A stretch of DNA of 37,477 nt from Cytophagales bacterium (GTDB taxonomy: Bacteria; Bacteroidota; Bacteroidia; Cytophagales; Cyclobacteriaceae): contig JAAFHY010000024.1 in the NCBI GenBank assembly GCA_013298505.1, forward strand, positions 1 to 37,477, in the 5' to 3' direction. Both the position numbers and the translations under genes were made by a program. Positions 1 through 4,476 of this stretch are shown in pieces (position 1 is the stretch's first letter; the number at the start of each line of letters is the position of its first letter). The notes below the pieces were generated by a model. It was not told where the DNA came from. It did no database searches and saw nothing but the letters and a program-made list of their open reading frames with translations.

Positions 1-549
1 CCACATAGGCAAATTGCGGAAGGGGCCTTTTTCGAATGAGGAAAATCCACGATGGATGGCGGCCATCTTTTTAATGCCCGCTTTGTTCAATCGCTCCAGC
101 GCTCCAATCCACAACTCCAAATCAGGGTTCACCGGATTCTTCACCATCACAGGAATGTCGACACCCTTCAGCGAATCGGCAATCTCTTGCACCGAAAAAG
201 GATTAACAGTAGTACGCGCGCCCACCCACAAAATATCTACACCGGCCTTCAGACATGCTTCTACATGCGCAGCATTCGCTACTTCAGTTGTTACCGGCAA
301 ACCAGTTTCTTTTTTAGCTGCCATCAGCCATTGTAAACCGATGTCGCCCGCACCTTCATATTGGCCTGGGCGTGTGCGCGGTTTCCAAATTCCTGCACGC
401 AGTGCATGTACTTTTCCTGTAGCTGCAATTTGCTTGCACGTAGCCACTGTTTGTTCTTCCGTTTCAGCGCTGCATGGCCCGCTGATGATGATCGGTTTTT
501 TCACGCCCAACCATTCTGCAATCGATTCAAGTTCCAATCCTTTTTTCAT
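1..549 (-). CDS. aroF: DAHP synthase, 3' part cut by window edge (probably DAHP synthase/chorismate mutase)
   Basis: This enzyme condenses phosphoenolpyruvate and erythrose 4-phosphate into 3-deoxy-7-phosphoheptulonate, the entry step of aromatic amino acid synthesis. The first 183 codons are visible, starting at the ATG at 549. They contain the family motifs SGPCSAE (about residues 23-29), ALRAGIWKPRTRPGQYEG, WVGARTTVNPFS and MVKNPVNPDLELW. The reading frame is still open at base 1, so the gene continues outside the window. In Bacteroidota this protein usually carries a C-terminal type II chorismate mutase domain, which cannot be seen here. It lies 227 bases downstream of tyrA in the same direction, and a dispersed repeat fills that gap. 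It is probably the last gene of the attenuated pheA operon, although the gap could hold its own promoter. The DAHP synthase call is firm; the mutase domain is an inference. Confidence 0.9.
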   Translation of the reverse strand, partial: MKKGLELESIAEWLGVKKPIIISGPCSAETEEQTVATCKQIAATGKVHALRAGIWKPRTRPGQYEGAGDIGLQWLMAAKKETGLPVTTEVANAAHVEACLKAGVDILWVGARTTVNPFSVQEIADSLKGVDIPVMVKNPVNPDLELWIGALERLNKAGIKKMAAIHRGFSSFEKGPFRNLPMW

Positions 550-600
550 ACGATCCAATTATTATGTTAATATTTAAAATTCATTTCATTAATCCTATTT

Positions 601-776: not shown

Positions 777-1625
777 TTACTTCTTGTCCAACACTCGCCT
801 AATCCCATTCGCATTCGTCAGTGTCTTCATCAACTCCTTCGAATCTTTCTTCATCAAGTGATAATGAAATTTCTGCAAGTGCATAATGTACTCCAGCAAA
901 GCCTGGCTCAAATACTCTGAGTTCTGCTCAAAGATGGGTGCCCACATCGCTGGCGAACTTTTTGCGAGGCGCACCGTAGAGGCAAAACCACTACCCGCCA
1001 AATCAAAAATATTCTTCTCATCTTTTTCAATATCCAATACGGTTTGCCCCAGCAAAAACGAACTCACGTGCGATAAGTGAGAAACATACGCCACATGTTT
1101 ATCATGTTCTTCGGCTTCCATGAAAATAGTTTTCAAACCCACCGCATCAAAAATACTTTGTGCAATCTTCAATGAGTGCTCTGACGATTTTTCACTCTCA
1201 CAAATAATATTTGTCTTGCCCACAAACAAACCCTCCAGAGCAGCGGTAGGCCCTGAGTTTTCTGTTCCTGAAATTGGATGGGCCGCCACAAACTGATTCC
1301 TTCGCGCATGGCCTGAAACCGATTTACAAATCAATCCTTTCGTACTGCCCGTGTCGATCACTACGGTGTTCTTTCCAATCTGATCAAGAATAGTTGGTAA
1401 AAGAGCACCAATAGCATTCACCGGAATCGTCAACAACACCACATCCGATTCAGCAAGCGCTTTGTCTTCCGGCAAGATGCGATCCACCAAACCAAGCTCT
1501 ACTGCTTGCTGTGCATGTGCCTGATTAAAGTCAACACCAATCAAATCGGTAGCCAACTTGTGCTTCCGCAAATCCATCGAGAGCGAACCTCCAATCAATC
1601 CCAAACCAATCACCGTTACTTTCAT
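777..1625 (-). CDS. tyrA: Prephenate dehydrogenase
   Basis: This enzyme oxidatively decarboxylates prephenate to 4-hydroxyphenylpyruvate on the tyrosine branch. The 282-residue protein starts with the Rossmann motif VIGLGLIGGSL (residues 4-14, GxGxxG). It then has the family motif AHPISGTENSGP near residue 115 and a conserved His-rich helix around HDKHVAYVSHLSHV. The length fits a monofunctional TyrA without a fused chorismate mutase or ACT domain. Its ATG overlaps the TGA of the upstream aminotransferase gene by four bases (ATGA at 1622-1625), so the two are very likely translationally coupled. With no ACT domain visible, control probably comes from the upstream attenuator and from the DAHP synthase step. 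The call is secure. Confidence 0.95.
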   Translation of the reverse strand: MKVTVIGLGLIGGSLSMDLRKHKLATDLIGVDFNQAHAQQAVELGLVDRILPEDKALAESDVVLLTIPVNAIGALLPTILDQIGKNTVVIDTGSTKGLICKSVSGHARRNQFVAAHPISGTENSGPTAALEGLFVGKTNIICESEKSSEHSLKIAQSIFDAVGLKTIFMEAEEHDKHVAYVSHLSHVSSFLLGQTVLDIEKDEKNIFDLAGSGFASTVRLAKSSPAMWAPIFEQNSEYLSQALLEYIMHLQKFHYHLMKKDSKELMKTLTNANGIRRVLDKK

Positions 1626-2818
1626 AAGGAGACTTTAGTAATGTGACTTGAATCTTGAGATATTAAAAACTTTTGAATTCGCTCGCGCGCTTCATTAAGT
1701 TTTTCTTCGGTCGCACAAAGCGAAATACGAATATGCTTTCTTCCAGCTTCACCGAAAATAAATCCCGGAGTAATGAAAACGTGCGTGCCGTATAAAATCT
1801 CATCAATCCATTTTTCTACATCCTGAATGTGTACCGGTGCTTTGGCCCAGACAAACAATCCCGATTGTTCCTTCGAATAAGTACAACCCAACTCATCCAA
1901 AATACGGCAGGCGGCATCTTTGCGCTTTTGATAAATCGCATTAAGTCGTGTAAACCACTCGGTTCCACTTTGCAAGGCCTCCACGGCTGCATGTTGTAAT
2001 CCTAAAAACATGCCCGAATCCATATTGCTCTTCACGCGTAGCACCGCGTCAATATATTGTGCGTTGCCTGCTACCCAACCAATGCGCCAGCCTGCCATAT
2101 TATGCGACTTGCTCAGCGAATTTAATTCTAGTGCAACATCGGCTGCACCTTCAATACTTAAAATAGAAAGTGGATGATTATTCAAAATCAGTGAATACGG
2201 ATTATCATTCACAATCAAAAATTGATACTTGCGAGCTAAGTCAACCAATTCTTTGAGTTCTGCTCGCGAAGCAATACGACCTGTTGGCATGTGCGGAAAA
2301 TTAACCCACATCACTTTCACTTTAGTCAAATCGCGCTTGCGTAATTCATCGATGTCAATGCCCCATCCCAGTTCTTCTTTCATGGCATAAGTGCTCGTCT
2401 TAGCGCCAACTAATTTCGCCACCGAAGCATAGGTAGGGTAACCGGGATCCGGAATCAACACTTCATCTCCTTCATTGACAAATGCCATCATGATGTGCAT
2501 GATACCTTCCTTCGATCCCATCAGCGGAAGTATCTCCGTTTCGGTGTTGAGAGTTACTCCATAGGTGGTCTGATAAAAATCCGCAATGCCTTTTCTCAGT
2601 TGTGGAATACCTTTGTAATTCTGATAGCCGTGATTAGCAGGGTTCTTAGCCGAAGCAATCAACGCATCGATGGCGTTCGCTGCCGGCATCTGATCCGGAC
2701 TGCCAATACCCAAATTGATTACGCGCCATTCAGGTGTGTCAAGGCTTCGCACTTCCACCAGCTTTTTGCTGAAGTAGTACTCTTCTACATTCTTAATCCG
2801 ATTCGCTGCTTCTATCAT
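1622..2818 (-). CDS. PLP-dependent class I/II aminotransferase, probably aromatic or prephenate aminotransferase
   Basis: The 398-residue fold type I aminotransferase has its Schiff-base lysine in NSLSKSHNMAGWRIGW (K237), the Tyr of DPGYPTY near residue 127, NDNPYS near 205 and the phosphate/carboxylate arginine in HIRISLC near the C-terminus. The usual NNPTG motif reads PHMPTG here. Sequence alone does not fix the substrate. Its place between prephenate dehydratase and prephenate dehydrogenase, in one transcription unit, suggests transamination of phenylpyruvate and 4-hydroxyphenylpyruvate, or of prephenate. It resembles the aspartate/LL-diaminopimelate aminotransferase groups, so those activities remain possible. 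It ends in a four-base overlap with tyrA. The start ATG at 2818 is the only in-frame ATG ahead of the conserved N-terminal region. Confidence 0.88.
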   Translation of the reverse strand: MIEAANRIKNVEEYYFSKKLVEVRSLDTPEWRVINLGIGSPDQMPAANAIDALIASAKNPANHGYQNYKGIPQLRKGIADFYQTTYGVTLNTETEILPLMGSKEGIMHIMMAFVNEGDEVLIPDPGYPTYASVAKLVGAKTSTYAMKEELGWGIDIDELRKRDLTKVKVMWVNFPHMPTGRIASRAELKELVDLARKYQFLIVNDNPYSLILNNHPLSILSIEGAADVALELNSLSKSHNMAGWRIGWVAGNAQYIDAVLRVKSNMDSGMFLGLQHAAVEALQSGTEWFTRLNAIYQKRKDAACRILDELGCTYSKEQSGLFVWAKAPVHIQDVEKWIDEILYGTHVFITPGFIFGEAGRKHIRISLCATEEKLNEARERIQKFLISQDSSHITKVSL

Positions 2819-2872: not shown

Positions 2873-3715
2873 CTACTTGTATTCAATCTTGGCTTTCTTG
2901 TATTCCCCCAACACATTCAGGTTTCTGACTTGCCGCAGGACTTCCTGAATAGCGGTATCATAACTTTTCCTGCGCTTCCACTCTACATCAATGTGAATCG
3001 AATACTCGCTGGGTTTTCCTATAATCGGTATGGATTGGATCTTCGTGAGGTTGATTTGATTCTTCTTCAATGTCATCAACGCTTCCGCCAAACTTCCCAC
3101 CTCATTCGCTACTTCAAAACACAACGAAGCCTTGTTGCTGTCCTTGGCCGTTTCTCTTCCTTTAATAAGCACCAGAAAGCGGGTGAAGTTTTTCTTATTG
3201 GTCTCAATGCGTTTTTCCAAAATCTGCAATCCAAATTTTTTAGCTGCATACTCATTGGCAATGGCTGCCGTATCGGTCAATTTTTTCTCCTTCACCTTCC
3301 GTGCCGAAACAGCTGTATCATCGCTTTCGCGGATTTCGATGTTTCTCAAACGAAACAAAAAATCGTTGCATTGTCGTATGGCCATCGGGTGCGACTCCAC
3401 GCACTTGATATCGCTCAATTTCACGCCCGGTAAAGCCAACAAGTGCATGTGGATCGGCAAGTACACTTCACCAATAATGGAGAAGTGATACTCCTGCAAT
3501 AAAAAGTAATTGGGCAAAATGCTTCCCGCAATGGAGTTTTCAATCGCCATGATGGCAAAGTCAGATTCTTCTTTCTTGAGCGATTCACACAATGCATGAA
3601 ACGACAAGCATTCCACTGTTTCAATCGGCTCTTGGAAGTAGGTCAATGCCGCCACCTCATGAAAGCTGGTGGCTATGCCCTGTATGGCTACTTTTGTTTT
3701 TCTCTTCTTGCTCAT
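2873..3715 (-). CDS. pheA: Prephenate dehydratase
   Basis: This enzyme converts prephenate to phenylpyruvate for phenylalanine synthesis. The 280-residue protein has the prephenate dehydratase opening AIQGIATSFHEVAA (about residues 9-22), an ENSIAGS motif near residue 58 and the catalytic TRF motif in FTRFLVL (about residue 178). A C-terminal ACT domain follows, with NEVGSLAEAL and then SIPIIGKPSEYSIHIDVE in place of the usual ESRP region. The length matches a monofunctional dehydratase with an ACT domain, so Phe may also inhibit it allosterically. The start at 3715 lies 17 bases downstream of the attenuator hairpin. It is the first structural gene of the operon and the one the Phe/Tyr leader would control most directly. 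Confidence 0.95.
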   Translation of the reverse strand: MSKKRKTKVAIQGIATSFHEVAALTYFQEPIETVECLSFHALCESLKKEESDFAIMAIENSIAGSILPNYFLLQEYHFSIIGEVYLPIHMHLLALPGVKLSDIKCVESHPMAIRQCNDFLFRLRNIEIRESDDTAVSARKVKEKKLTDTAAIANEYAAKKFGLQILEKRIETNKKNFTRFLVLIKGRETAKDSNKASLCFEVANEVGSLAEALMTLKKNQINLTKIQSIPIIGKPSEYSIHIDVEWKRRKSYDTAIQEVLRQVRNLNVLGEYKKAKIEYK

Positions 3716-3732
3716 TCAATCGTTATAAAATG

Positions 3733-3760
3733 AAAAGTCCCAGTTTTCACCGGGACTTTT
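3733..3760 (-). terminator. Attenuator terminator hairpin ahead of pheA
   Basis: On the minus strand, AAAAGTCCCGGT (3760-3749) pairs with ACTGGGACTTTT (3744-3733) over 12 bp with one G-U pair. The loop is the tetraloop GAAA. The 3' arm ends in TTTT, followed by CATTTTA. It sits between the leader peptide stop codon (3785) and the pheA start (3715), where an attenuator terminator belongs. The U-run is short, so efficiency is uncertain. Confidence 0.85.
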
Positions 3761-3815
3761 CTGAGTTTCTTTTGTTTTTATGTATTAACAAAGCGATTCT
3801 CTATCTAGTCCCAGT
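3749..3815 (-). promoter_or_regulatory. Predicted antiterminator pairing of the Phe/Tyr attenuator
   Basis: The segment ACTGGGACT inside the leader ORF (3815-3807) can pair over 9 bp, with one wobble, with AGTCCCGGT (3757-3749). That second segment is the 5' arm of the terminator. The same 9-mer is repeated in the terminator 3' arm (3744-3736), so the leader segment competes directly with it. A small hairpin, CCAG (3823-3820) with CTGG (3814-3811), could hide the leader segment once the ribosome has passed. A ribosome stalled on the Phe/Tyr codons (3847-3824) would block that hairpin and favour antitermination. A stall on the very last Tyr codon might also cover part of the segment. Confidence 0.75.
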
Positions 3816-3862
3816 TGAGCTGGATAAAAGTAAAAGCTAAAATAAAATCGCTTGTTGTTCAT
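3785..3862 (-). CDS. Phe/Tyr-rich attenuation leader peptide
   Basis: This is a 25-codon ORF, ATG at 3862 to TAA at 3785. Residues 6-13 read FYFSFYFY, so seven of eight are aromatic: four Phe (TTT) and three Tyr (TAT or TAC). Residues 14-25 contain no Phe or Tyr. Such clustering is very unlikely by chance in the leader of an operon that makes exactly these two amino acids. The peptide itself need have no function; its translation would sense charged tRNA-Phe and tRNA-Tyr. No clear Shine-Dalgarno site precedes it, which is normal for this phylum. It is too short for routine gene callers. Confidence 0.85.
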   Translation of the reverse strand: MNNKRFYFSFYFYPAQLGLDRESLC

Positions 3863-3942: not shown

Positions 3943-3971
3943 AAAAGCTAACCTTTGTTAGTTAGCGTCAA
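3943..3971 (-). promoter_or_regulatory. Possible promoter of the leader-pheA operon
   Basis: On the minus strand a TTG (3971-3969) is followed after 18 bases by TAGCTTTT (3950-3943), a near match to TAnnTTTG with spacing one base short of the usual 19-21. Alternatives such as TAAAATTG lie about 20 bases further downstream. The inverted repeat GCTAAC (3947-3952) and GTTAGC (3961-3966) lies between the two elements and could be an operator. Confidence 0.35.
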
Positions 3972-3973
3972 AA

Positions 3974-4004
3974 TTGAGTAGTAAATACAAATCTATTATC
4001 TTTG
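3974..4004 (+). promoter_or_regulatory. Bacteroidota-type promoter of the lipoprotein gene
   Basis: TTG (3974-3976), then 20 bases, then TATCTTTG (3997-4004) is an exact fit to the primary sigma factor consensus of Bacteroidota (TTG, 19-21 bases, TAnnTTTG). The predicted start of transcription lies near 4010-4012, about 20 bases before the ATG at 4030. Its -33 element lies back to back with the possible pheA operon promoter. Confidence 0.75.
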
Positions 4005-4029: not shown

Positions 4030-4476
4030 ATGAAAATAACCTGCATCGTATCCATTTTAACCATTGCTTTGACTTCTTGTAATCAATCTGGGAAACACGA
4101 ACATCACACAAGTGATGCCGCTAACGGTGAAAATCCAAATAGTTTATTGTACGACCAGGTAATGGATATCCATGACGAGATCATGCCTCGGGCAGAAGAT
4201 ATTTATCAACTTAAAAAGACCTTACAAGAGAAGTTAGCAAGTGCTCCAGATCTTGTGGCTGATAAGAAGAAAGAACTTGAATTAACGATCGCACAATTGG
4301 ACTCTGCTGATCAGTCGATGATGGAATGGATGCATCGATTTCGCCCGCTGCCAGATTCAGCAGACCAAGAAAAAGCAAGGGCTTATCTAGAATCTGAAAT
4401 GGAGCGAATAAAGAAAGTGAAAGAGTTAATGAATGAGTCTATCGAAAAAGCGAAAGACCTAGTTATAAAAAAGTAA
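4030..4476 (+). CDS. Small lipoprotein with a helical domain, function unknown
   Basis: The 148-residue protein opens with a lipoprotein signal peptide ending in the lipobox LTSC (Cys17). A His-containing stretch (KHEHHTSD) follows, then an almost entirely helical, charged region with heptad-like spacing from about residue 38 to the end (for example KKELELTIAQLDSADQSMMEWMHRF). I associate it with short Bacteroidota lipoproteins that databases sometimes label 'viral A-type inclusion protein', but that name carries no functional meaning. It is monocistronic, with a near-ideal promoter 26 bases upstream, and converges with clpC. It is probably anchored to a membrane facing the periplasm. I cannot assign a role. 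Confidence 0.8.
   Translation: MKITCIVSILTIALTSCNQSGKHEHHTSDAANGENPNSLLYDQVMDIHDEIMPRAEDIYQLKKTLQEKLASAPDLVADKKKELELTIAQLDSADQSMMEWMHRFRPLPDSADQEKARAYLESEMERIKKVKELMNESIEKAKDLVIKK

Follow-up and report, generated by a model that had tools for sequence, protein, structure and literature searches.

A ribosome-mediated transcription attenuator that reads the charging of both tRNA-Phe and tRNA-Tyr very probably stands ahead of pheA, an aminotransferase gene, tyrA and a DAHP synthase gene in the window, the whole 37,477-nucleotide stretch of Cytophagales DNA analysed here. We put the probability of this reading, which draws on the sequence and its comparison with relatives, at close to 0.9. The basic mechanism is textbook; what is new is that dual sensing is the rule, that there is an extra helix, that the element is spread so broadly and that it has no Rfam family at threshold. 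The features on which the argument draws are these:

3785..3862, minus strand: leader ORF of 25 codons, MNNKRFYFSFYFYPAQLGLDRESLC followed by a stop, from the ORF reading
3824..3847, minus strand: control codons 6-13, F Y F S F Y F Y, with comparable runs in relatives
3844..3853, minus strand: segment 1, AAGCGATTTT, close to where the leader ORF begins, partner of segment 1' (covariation on alignment A1, swap test, minimum-free-energy fold)
3791..3800, minus strand: segment 1', AGAATCGCTT, coding in the window and 3' of the stop codon in some relatives
3820..3824, minus strand: inner element TCCAG, a possible local protector hairpin with CTGGG of segment 2 (fold, pairing scores)
3807..3815, minus strand: segment 2, ACTGGGACT, left arm of the antiterminator, within the leader ORF
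3749..3757, minus strand: segment 3, AGTCCCGGT, right arm of the antiterminator and 5' arm of the terminator
3736..3744, minus strand: segment 4, ACTGGGACT, core of the terminator 3' arm
3733..3760, minus strand: intrinsic terminator hairpin of 12 bp with a GAAA loop, in a T-rich context
3988..3995, minus strand: weak candidate -7 box, an exact TAnnTTTG (TAGATTTG), 126 nt upstream of the leader ATG
2873..3715, minus strand: pheA, prephenate dehydratase (PF00800, E 2.5e-55)
1622..2818, minus strand: class I/II aminotransferase (PF00155)
777..1625, minus strand: tyrA, prephenate dehydrogenase (PF02153, PF20463)
1..558, minus strand: DAHP synthase, cut by the window end (PF00793)

The leader and its parts

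Codons 6-13 of the leader read TTT TAT TTT AGC TTT TAC TTT TAT, four for Phe and three for Tyr, so that seven of the eight specify the end products of the operon. The last base of the terminator hairpin lies 17 nt before the pheA ATG at 3715. ACTGGGACT occurs twice, at 3815-3807 and at 3744-3736, and because the leader in this way repeats the terminator 3' arm, the terminator 5' arm (AGTCCCGGT, 3757-3749) can pair with either copy, with one G-U pair. The preliminary description of this DNA had picked out the 25-codon Phe/Tyr leader ORF, the 12-bp GAAA terminator and the repeated 9-mer, and all three were confirmed. The folding it had suggested for the 130-nt region 3733-3862 gave z = -4.79, and none of 200 shuffled sequences folded as stably. 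Even with up to three mismatches allowed, the terminator sequence occurs only once in the window, and none of 436 segments elsewhere in it reached seven aromatic residues in nine (three reached six).

Conservation of the aromatic codon run

Searches with PheA yielded 110 pheA loci, whose upstream regions comprised 88 distinct sequences; 86 of these were scored, L082 and L086 being too short. In 75 of the 86, the 300 nt preceding pheA encoded a stretch with at least seven aromatic residues (F/Y/W) in nine, against 1 of 1182 equal-length control segments from the same loci and none of 1720 shuffles. With at least six in nine the counts were 77/86, 15/1182 and 6/1720. Conservation of the run upstream of relatives' pheA, which had been proposed as a check, is borne out by these counts, and a chance origin of the association of leader and pheA is very unlikely. 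In L018/L067 (isolate SSA6) a one-base difference within a T run shifts the leader frame, and stops interrupt pheA, perhaps through sequencing errors; L018 was scored as a miss because that one base breaks the leader frame in this metagenome-assembled genome (MAG).

Phe and Tyr codons occur together in all 77 leaders of the first set, so a shared sensor for the two, which the preliminary description had thought would be unusual, is not unusual here. A Trp codon is also present in 21 of the 77 (L006, L019, L051, L079 and others, with runs such as RFYFWFYFY and AYWFFGYFYFF), hinting at three-way aromatic sensing in some lineages. Leaders were found in Cytophagales, Sphingobacteriales (Solitalea), Marinilabiliales (Carboxylicivirga) and records named Bacteroidales or Saprospiraceae. 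The closest named PheA records belong to MAGs of Flammeovirgaceae and Cyclobacteriaceae, and the named isolates that were hit include Ohtaekwangia, Chryseolinea and Chryseosolibacter; judged by these relatives, the window comes from a Cytophagales-like metagenome assembly.

Across the class, a PheA match was present in 79 of 295 sampled Bacteroidia genomes, and a PF00800 family search of 198 Bacteroidia genomes gave 52 with a match, none beyond those of the PheA search. At a threshold of at least five in nine, 53 of 77 class-wide pheA loci had a leader, a threshold at which the control rate was 60/1182 and doubtful ORFs (e.g. L158, L196) are admitted; at least six in nine gave 47 of 77. These 77 loci leave out the window's own genome and the partial hit G080, with L206 assigned to the set from the same order; the loci read also do not include the split genes of G018 and G026. 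A further 12 loci from the same order, whose PheA proteins show 28-47% identity, yielded one leader (L210). In the second set as a whole no leader was found at 35 of 89 loci, and in three genomes of the window's family (G151, G183 and G322, PheA 43-45% identical) there was no aromatic leader within 500 nt of pheA. The leader at L179 lies in G129, the only sampled genome with an over-cut-off match to the Rfam family BTnc231, and this genome is therefore probably Bacteroides or close kin.

Terminator and antiterminator

A hairpin with a T-rich tail, scoring at least 20, stands behind 75 of the 77 first-set leaders, against none of 669 control segments and none of 385 shuffles. The two that fail the scan, L013 and L108, have a hairpin visible by eye. 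In the second set 50 of 55 leaders have a terminator hairpin, and the pairing tests leave out the leaders without one (2 of 77 and 5 of 55).

To follow the antiterminator across species we used a swap test, which compares the best duplex between the RNA behind the aromatic run and the terminator 5' arm with the best duplex when the arms are exchanged between species. In 55 leaders less than 75% alike, segments 2 and 3 had a mean score of 17.89 in their native combinations and 13.28 (sd 0.37) when swapped, with 0/5000 permutations reaching the native value, while an unrelated segment pair used as a control gave 9.11 against 9.23. The outcome was again 0/5000 in 26 Cytophagales leaders at 85% dereplication and in 47 leaders from outside Cytophagales; it was weaker (7/5000) with only the nine Cytophagales leaders left at 75% dereplication. 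At one column segments 2, 3 and 4 shift together, reading A-T-A in 46, G-C-G in four and G-T-A in five of the 55 leaders. Other matched sets are GGGGGATT/AATCCCCC (L029), CAGGGTT/AACCCTG (L088), CAGTGAGC/GCTCACTG (L110) and AGGTGGG/CCCGCCT (L100).

Pairs 2:3 and 3:4 were counted by per-sequence pairings and not on A1, in which MAFFT slides the terminator arm in many rows. Such paired counts are favourable by construction, the partners being the best duplex, and the 3:4 swap result is partly so too, as the hairpins were picked for strength. The antiterminator and the terminator exclude one another, and covariation backs this. Both stems, which the preliminary description had proposed to look for in related Cytophagales, are conserved in relatives, and the antiterminator covaries with the terminator.

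A helix that encloses the control codons

The same description had held that all the parts needed for sensing were present. The leader, terminator and antiterminator stood; what it missed is a third, conserved helix, in which 3853-3844, near the leader start, pairs with 3800-3791, behind segment 2. On A1, which holds 42 of the 54 Cytophagales reference leaders, 85.7% of the cells of helix 1:1' are paired, the covariation score is 0.348 against at most 0.136 for slid versions, and 40 cells are altered on both sides, where shuffles gave 17.2 and slid versions no more than 17. Two further measures on this helix showed no excess over shuffles: pairs with two-sided change (5 against 4.3, 196/500) and further pair types (16 against 15.4, 227/500).

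Relatedness can raise the paired fraction, the two-sided changes and the covariation score, and for this reason the swap test matters for helix 1:1'. It gave 0/5000 in the 55 dereplicated leaders and 0/5000 both in the 26 Cytophagales and in the 47 other leaders, and a weaker 55/5000 in the nine Cytophagales leaders. As segment 1' is part of the ORF in the clade of the window and follows the stop codon in others, selection acts on the RNA. This alternation makes segment 1' a clean example of RNA structure dictating the sequence of a leader peptide.

When closed, helix 1:1' encloses the control codons and segment 2 without sharing segment 2. An inner pairing of TCCAG with segment 2, a short CCC:GGG hairpin that would share segment 2 as the protector helix of an attenuator does, scored at least 9 in 48 of 55 Cytophagales leaders (37% with shuffled spacers); its core is invariant, so that no covariation is measurable. 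Outside Cytophagales it reached this score in 20 of 56 leaders (21% in shuffles), with a mean no higher than in shuffles.

Ribosome position and a model of regulation

The distance from the last aromatic codon to segment 2 has a median of 11 nt (IQR 9.75-12.25, n=112), and 107 of 112 leaders fall within 8-16; these spacing counts and the folding counts below cover 112 leaders, 13 of 125 with a duplex score under 15 having been left out. Given the ribosome footprint, the leading edge of a ribosome stalled on the run falls close to the start of segment 2. The distance from stop codon to segment 2 varies widely (IQR 2-21). A ribosome at the stop codon would cover at least half of segment 2 in 69 of the 112 leaders and none of it in 36, including that of the window. 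The preliminary description's attenuator anatomy is supported in its main line. The classical masking by a ribosome at the stop does not apply to the window, where segment 2 stays uncovered under the mask used. That description did not see that, throughout this clade, about 20 nt separate the antiterminator segment from the stop codon downstream of it, so masking of segment 2 does not follow of itself there; since the stop lies beyond the segment that it classically masks, we infer the decision step in this clade. We regard masking by a ribosome at the stop as one way to set the default state and not as a defining feature of the class.

We modelled the ribosome as a hard mask in equilibrium partition-function folding, which ignores kinetics and steric effects. 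Folded to the terminator loop, the 112 leaders had a mean P(2:3) of 0.93 with a stalled ribosome, 0.73 with no ribosome and 0.32 with a ribosome at the stop. With 60% of the terminator 3' arm out, and one more leader of outlying position left out, mean P(3:4) in the 69 leaders whose stop is near segment 2 was 0.47 stalled, 0.92 at the stop and 0.81 with no ribosome; in the 42 with a distant stop the values were 0.53, 0.79 and 0.94. The equilibrium model is only a partial fit, because the terminator keeps about half of the probability when the ribosome is stalled. For the window's leader P(3:4) was 0.26 stalled, 0.21 at the stop and 0.96 with no ribosome, so here the mask fails to separate the stalled ribosome from that at the stop.

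Sequence and comparison give the parts, their covariation, their spacing and the operon; from these we infer stalling, termination, read-through and release, which would work as follows. A ribosome would translate the leader while RNA polymerase transcribes. Were either tRNA poorly charged, it would stall on the Phe or Tyr codons and cover all or part of segment 1, hindering helix 1:1'. Segment 2, about 11 nt past the last aromatic codon and just beyond the leading edge of the stalled ribosome, would be free for segment 3. The 2:3 pairing would block the 3:4 terminator, and pheA, the aminotransferase gene, tyrA and the DAHP synthase gene would be transcribed. With both tRNAs plentiful the ribosome would run through, and in many relatives it would come to cover segment 2 on reaching the stop. 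For the clade of the window it would also have to leave, so that helix 1:1' could close around segment 2. Segment 3 would then pair with segment 4, ending transcription before pheA. On the folding model, release of the ribosome and closure of helix 1:1' would best account for the terminating state in the window.

This picture may extend widely in Bacteroidia, with one translated Phe-or-Tyr sensor setting the whole aromatic branch, DAHP synthase included, and the decision made partly by helix 1:1' as a clamp that is opened by an initiating or stalled ribosome and closes on its release; we offer this generalisation tentatively, at a little under even odds. If the release-dependent variant is true, a ribosome at the stop codon need not mask the antiterminator. 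Wide conservation would then imply tight coupling of transcription and translation in a group that mostly initiates without Shine-Dalgarno pairing. On our main reading, the element provides a simple genetic test of such coupling in Bacteroidota, as attenuation works only if the ribosome keeps close to RNA polymerase. It is the likely control of how aromatic amino acids are made in many Bacteroidia, Bacteroides (L179) probably among them.

Alternative explanations

The leader might instead encode a small functional peptide, with a membrane or signalling role for example, the hairpin being an unrelated terminator or an mRNA-stability element. We consider this very unlikely. The ORF is kept in many lineages and a C-terminal RESLC or RESVC is conserved in one clade, as such a peptide would be, but the rest of the peptide, beyond the aromatic run, varies strongly from clade to clade. 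The codons for RESLC make up segment 1', and the same bases lie 3' of the stop codon in L006, L025 and L051. The C-terminal L or V tracks a G-C to C-G change in helix 1:1', and segment 2 covaries with the terminator. Direct sensing of Phe, Tyr or uncharged tRNA by a metabolite riboswitch or T-box-like element, with the ORF incidental, would fit the strong structure and the intrinsic terminator. Yet neither the window nor any of 20 relatives had an Rfam match at gathering score, and an incidental ORF leaves unexplained the in-frame aromatic run in 75 of 86 upstream regions against 1 of 1182 controls; we find this reading scarcely credible.

The hairpin could also act on translation, by sequestering the start region of pheA until stalling in the leader opens it. 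To our knowledge, Bacteroidota at large have no Shine-Dalgarno sequences. Folding at the start site could matter in such a setting, flavobacteria being described as without Shine-Dalgarno sequences in part of the text of PMC9723704, and in the window and several relatives the hairpin does end no more than about 20 nt from pheA. Against this, in 12 of 75 loci (e.g. L003, L032-L035, L055) at least 75 nt separate the end of the hairpin from the inferred start of pheA, with the same kind of stem and T-rich tail. Occlusion of the start site is therefore no shared feature, and translational control is highly improbable as the explanation of the element. Transcription attenuation through a translated leader is the reading that we prefer.

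Transcription start

The -7 box consensus of Bacteroidota, TAnnTTTG, as quoted in part of PMC9723704, has an exact match in the 60 nt preceding the leader ATG at 28 of 77 loci, against a mean of 3.1 and a maximum of 8 in 500 runs of shuffles. In these relatives the match lies mostly at -25 to -30 of the leader ATG, and the leader ORF would therefore be the first on the transcript in those loci. The window has no exact TAnnTTTG at -25 to -30, the nearest upstream match on the minus strand being the candidate at 3995-3988; with 39 occurrences in the window, the motif is just as common as in shuffled sequence. Downstream of that candidate, at 3947-3966 on the minus strand and about 85 nt upstream of the leader ATG, is a second terminator-like hairpin, GCTAACTAACAAAGGTTAGC, followed by T-rich sequence. 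It may end clpC-derived transcripts and insulate the attenuator.

The operon and PheA

We compared 12 hand-chosen leader-bearing relatives over 6.4-6.8 kb each. Downstream of pheA, all 12 had DAHP synthase, 11 had the aminotransferase and eight had a clear prephenate dehydrogenase, with a weak match to the last in one more (L260). The order pheA-aminotransferase-tyrA-DAHP synthase was seen in eight of the 12.

The ACT domain of PheA (window 3715-2873, minus strand) falls under the Pfam cut-off. At the position of ESRP, which we take to be the allosteric motif expected in PheA, the window's protein reads QSIP. Every PheA row compared has QS[ILVMNT]P there, with or without a leader, so loss of feedback control as a companion of the leader was set aside as uninformative.

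Relation to known systems

The enterobacterial pheL has a leader peptide with aromatic control codons, rich in Phe, followed by an antiterminator and a terminator directly ahead of pheA. The Rfam model of this element (RF01859, Phe_leader) matches that of the window weakly over its whole length, at 32.2 bits against a gathering score of 55. Unlike the Phe-rich pheL, the Bacteroidia leaders of the first set hold Phe and Tyr codons without exception; they differ further in having the antiterminator segment inside the ORF, the enclosing helix 1:1' and an operon with tyrA and DAHP synthase.

Bacteroid-trp stands ahead of trp genes and holds Trp codons. It shares with the pheA element its nature as a Bacteroidetes cis-regulatory RNA (RF01692 in Table 1 of PMC2864571) and differs in operon and sequence. 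The control, Bacteroides ihuae, matched RF01692; the window's own genome gave no match, and the window itself none that reached the gathering score. The same table lists as cis-regulatory an element named for two amino acids, the Leu/phe leader of Lactococcus lactis (RF01743), a member of the Firmicutes; it too has no gathering-level match in the window. BTnc231 (RF04180) was rejected as the identity of the element: it matches 3731-3851 weakly (30.9 bits against a gathering score of 80.4), and the locus of its sole over-cut-off match among 295 Bacteroidia genomes (L112, 3.1 kb) has no PheA match. Other Rfam matches in the window were also below threshold, for example BjrC68 with 23.6 bits against 39, and no NCBIfam model matched the six leader peptides tried. 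The pheA leaders are a conserved RNA family without a curated model at threshold.

A 2021 study of the Flavobacterium psychrophilum transcriptome (PMC9723704) describes, in part of its text, structured 5' elements upstream of pheA and hisG with no Rfam match, the former present in other genera of Flavobacteriaceae, and reports 'strong clues' for leader-peptide attenuation upstream of amino-acid operons. The likeness to our element is a structured pheA 5' region in Bacteroidota, compared here by description only. The preliminary description knew of no tested Phe/Tyr case in Bacteroidota; the idea of attenuation was already there, in the sections concerned of this study and in the Bacteroid-trp entry of PMC2864571. 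Besides PMC9723704, no study of a pheA leader element was found among the full-text matches listed, a literature that leaves most subscription papers outside. Passages of PMC7366714 report Bacteroides thetaiotaomicron sORFs in long 5' UTRs, reminiscent of leader peptides, and do not mention pheA. A 2010 comparative study by Lopatovskaya and colleagues, cited in a passage of PMC4833913, may cover Bacteroidetes.

Other observations in the same genome

In the same genome hisG (G000:C156, L219) is preceded by a His-rich short ORF, MKNNQHVHRHHAKALLGDFMF followed by a stop, and by a strong hairpin of 17 pairs, A-U rich at its base (-22 kcal/mol, z -5.5), which the simple terminator scan does not list. 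This is likely, from its sequence, a histidine leader-peptide attenuator, and leader-peptide attenuation is therefore probably not limited to pheA here. Upstream of ilvD there is no short ORF rich in Leu, Ile or Val; the region looks coding and is therefore silent on any leader further up. The trpE gene lies at a contig edge.

A divergent ORF of 148 aa at 4030-4476 on the plus strand of the window looks lipoprotein-like by eye and has no Pfam match. Similar purine-rich intergenic stretches, resembling GTTGAAAGTTT, can be seen by eye on the minus strand at about 2820-2875, between pheA and the aminotransferase gene, and at 745-775, after tyrA.
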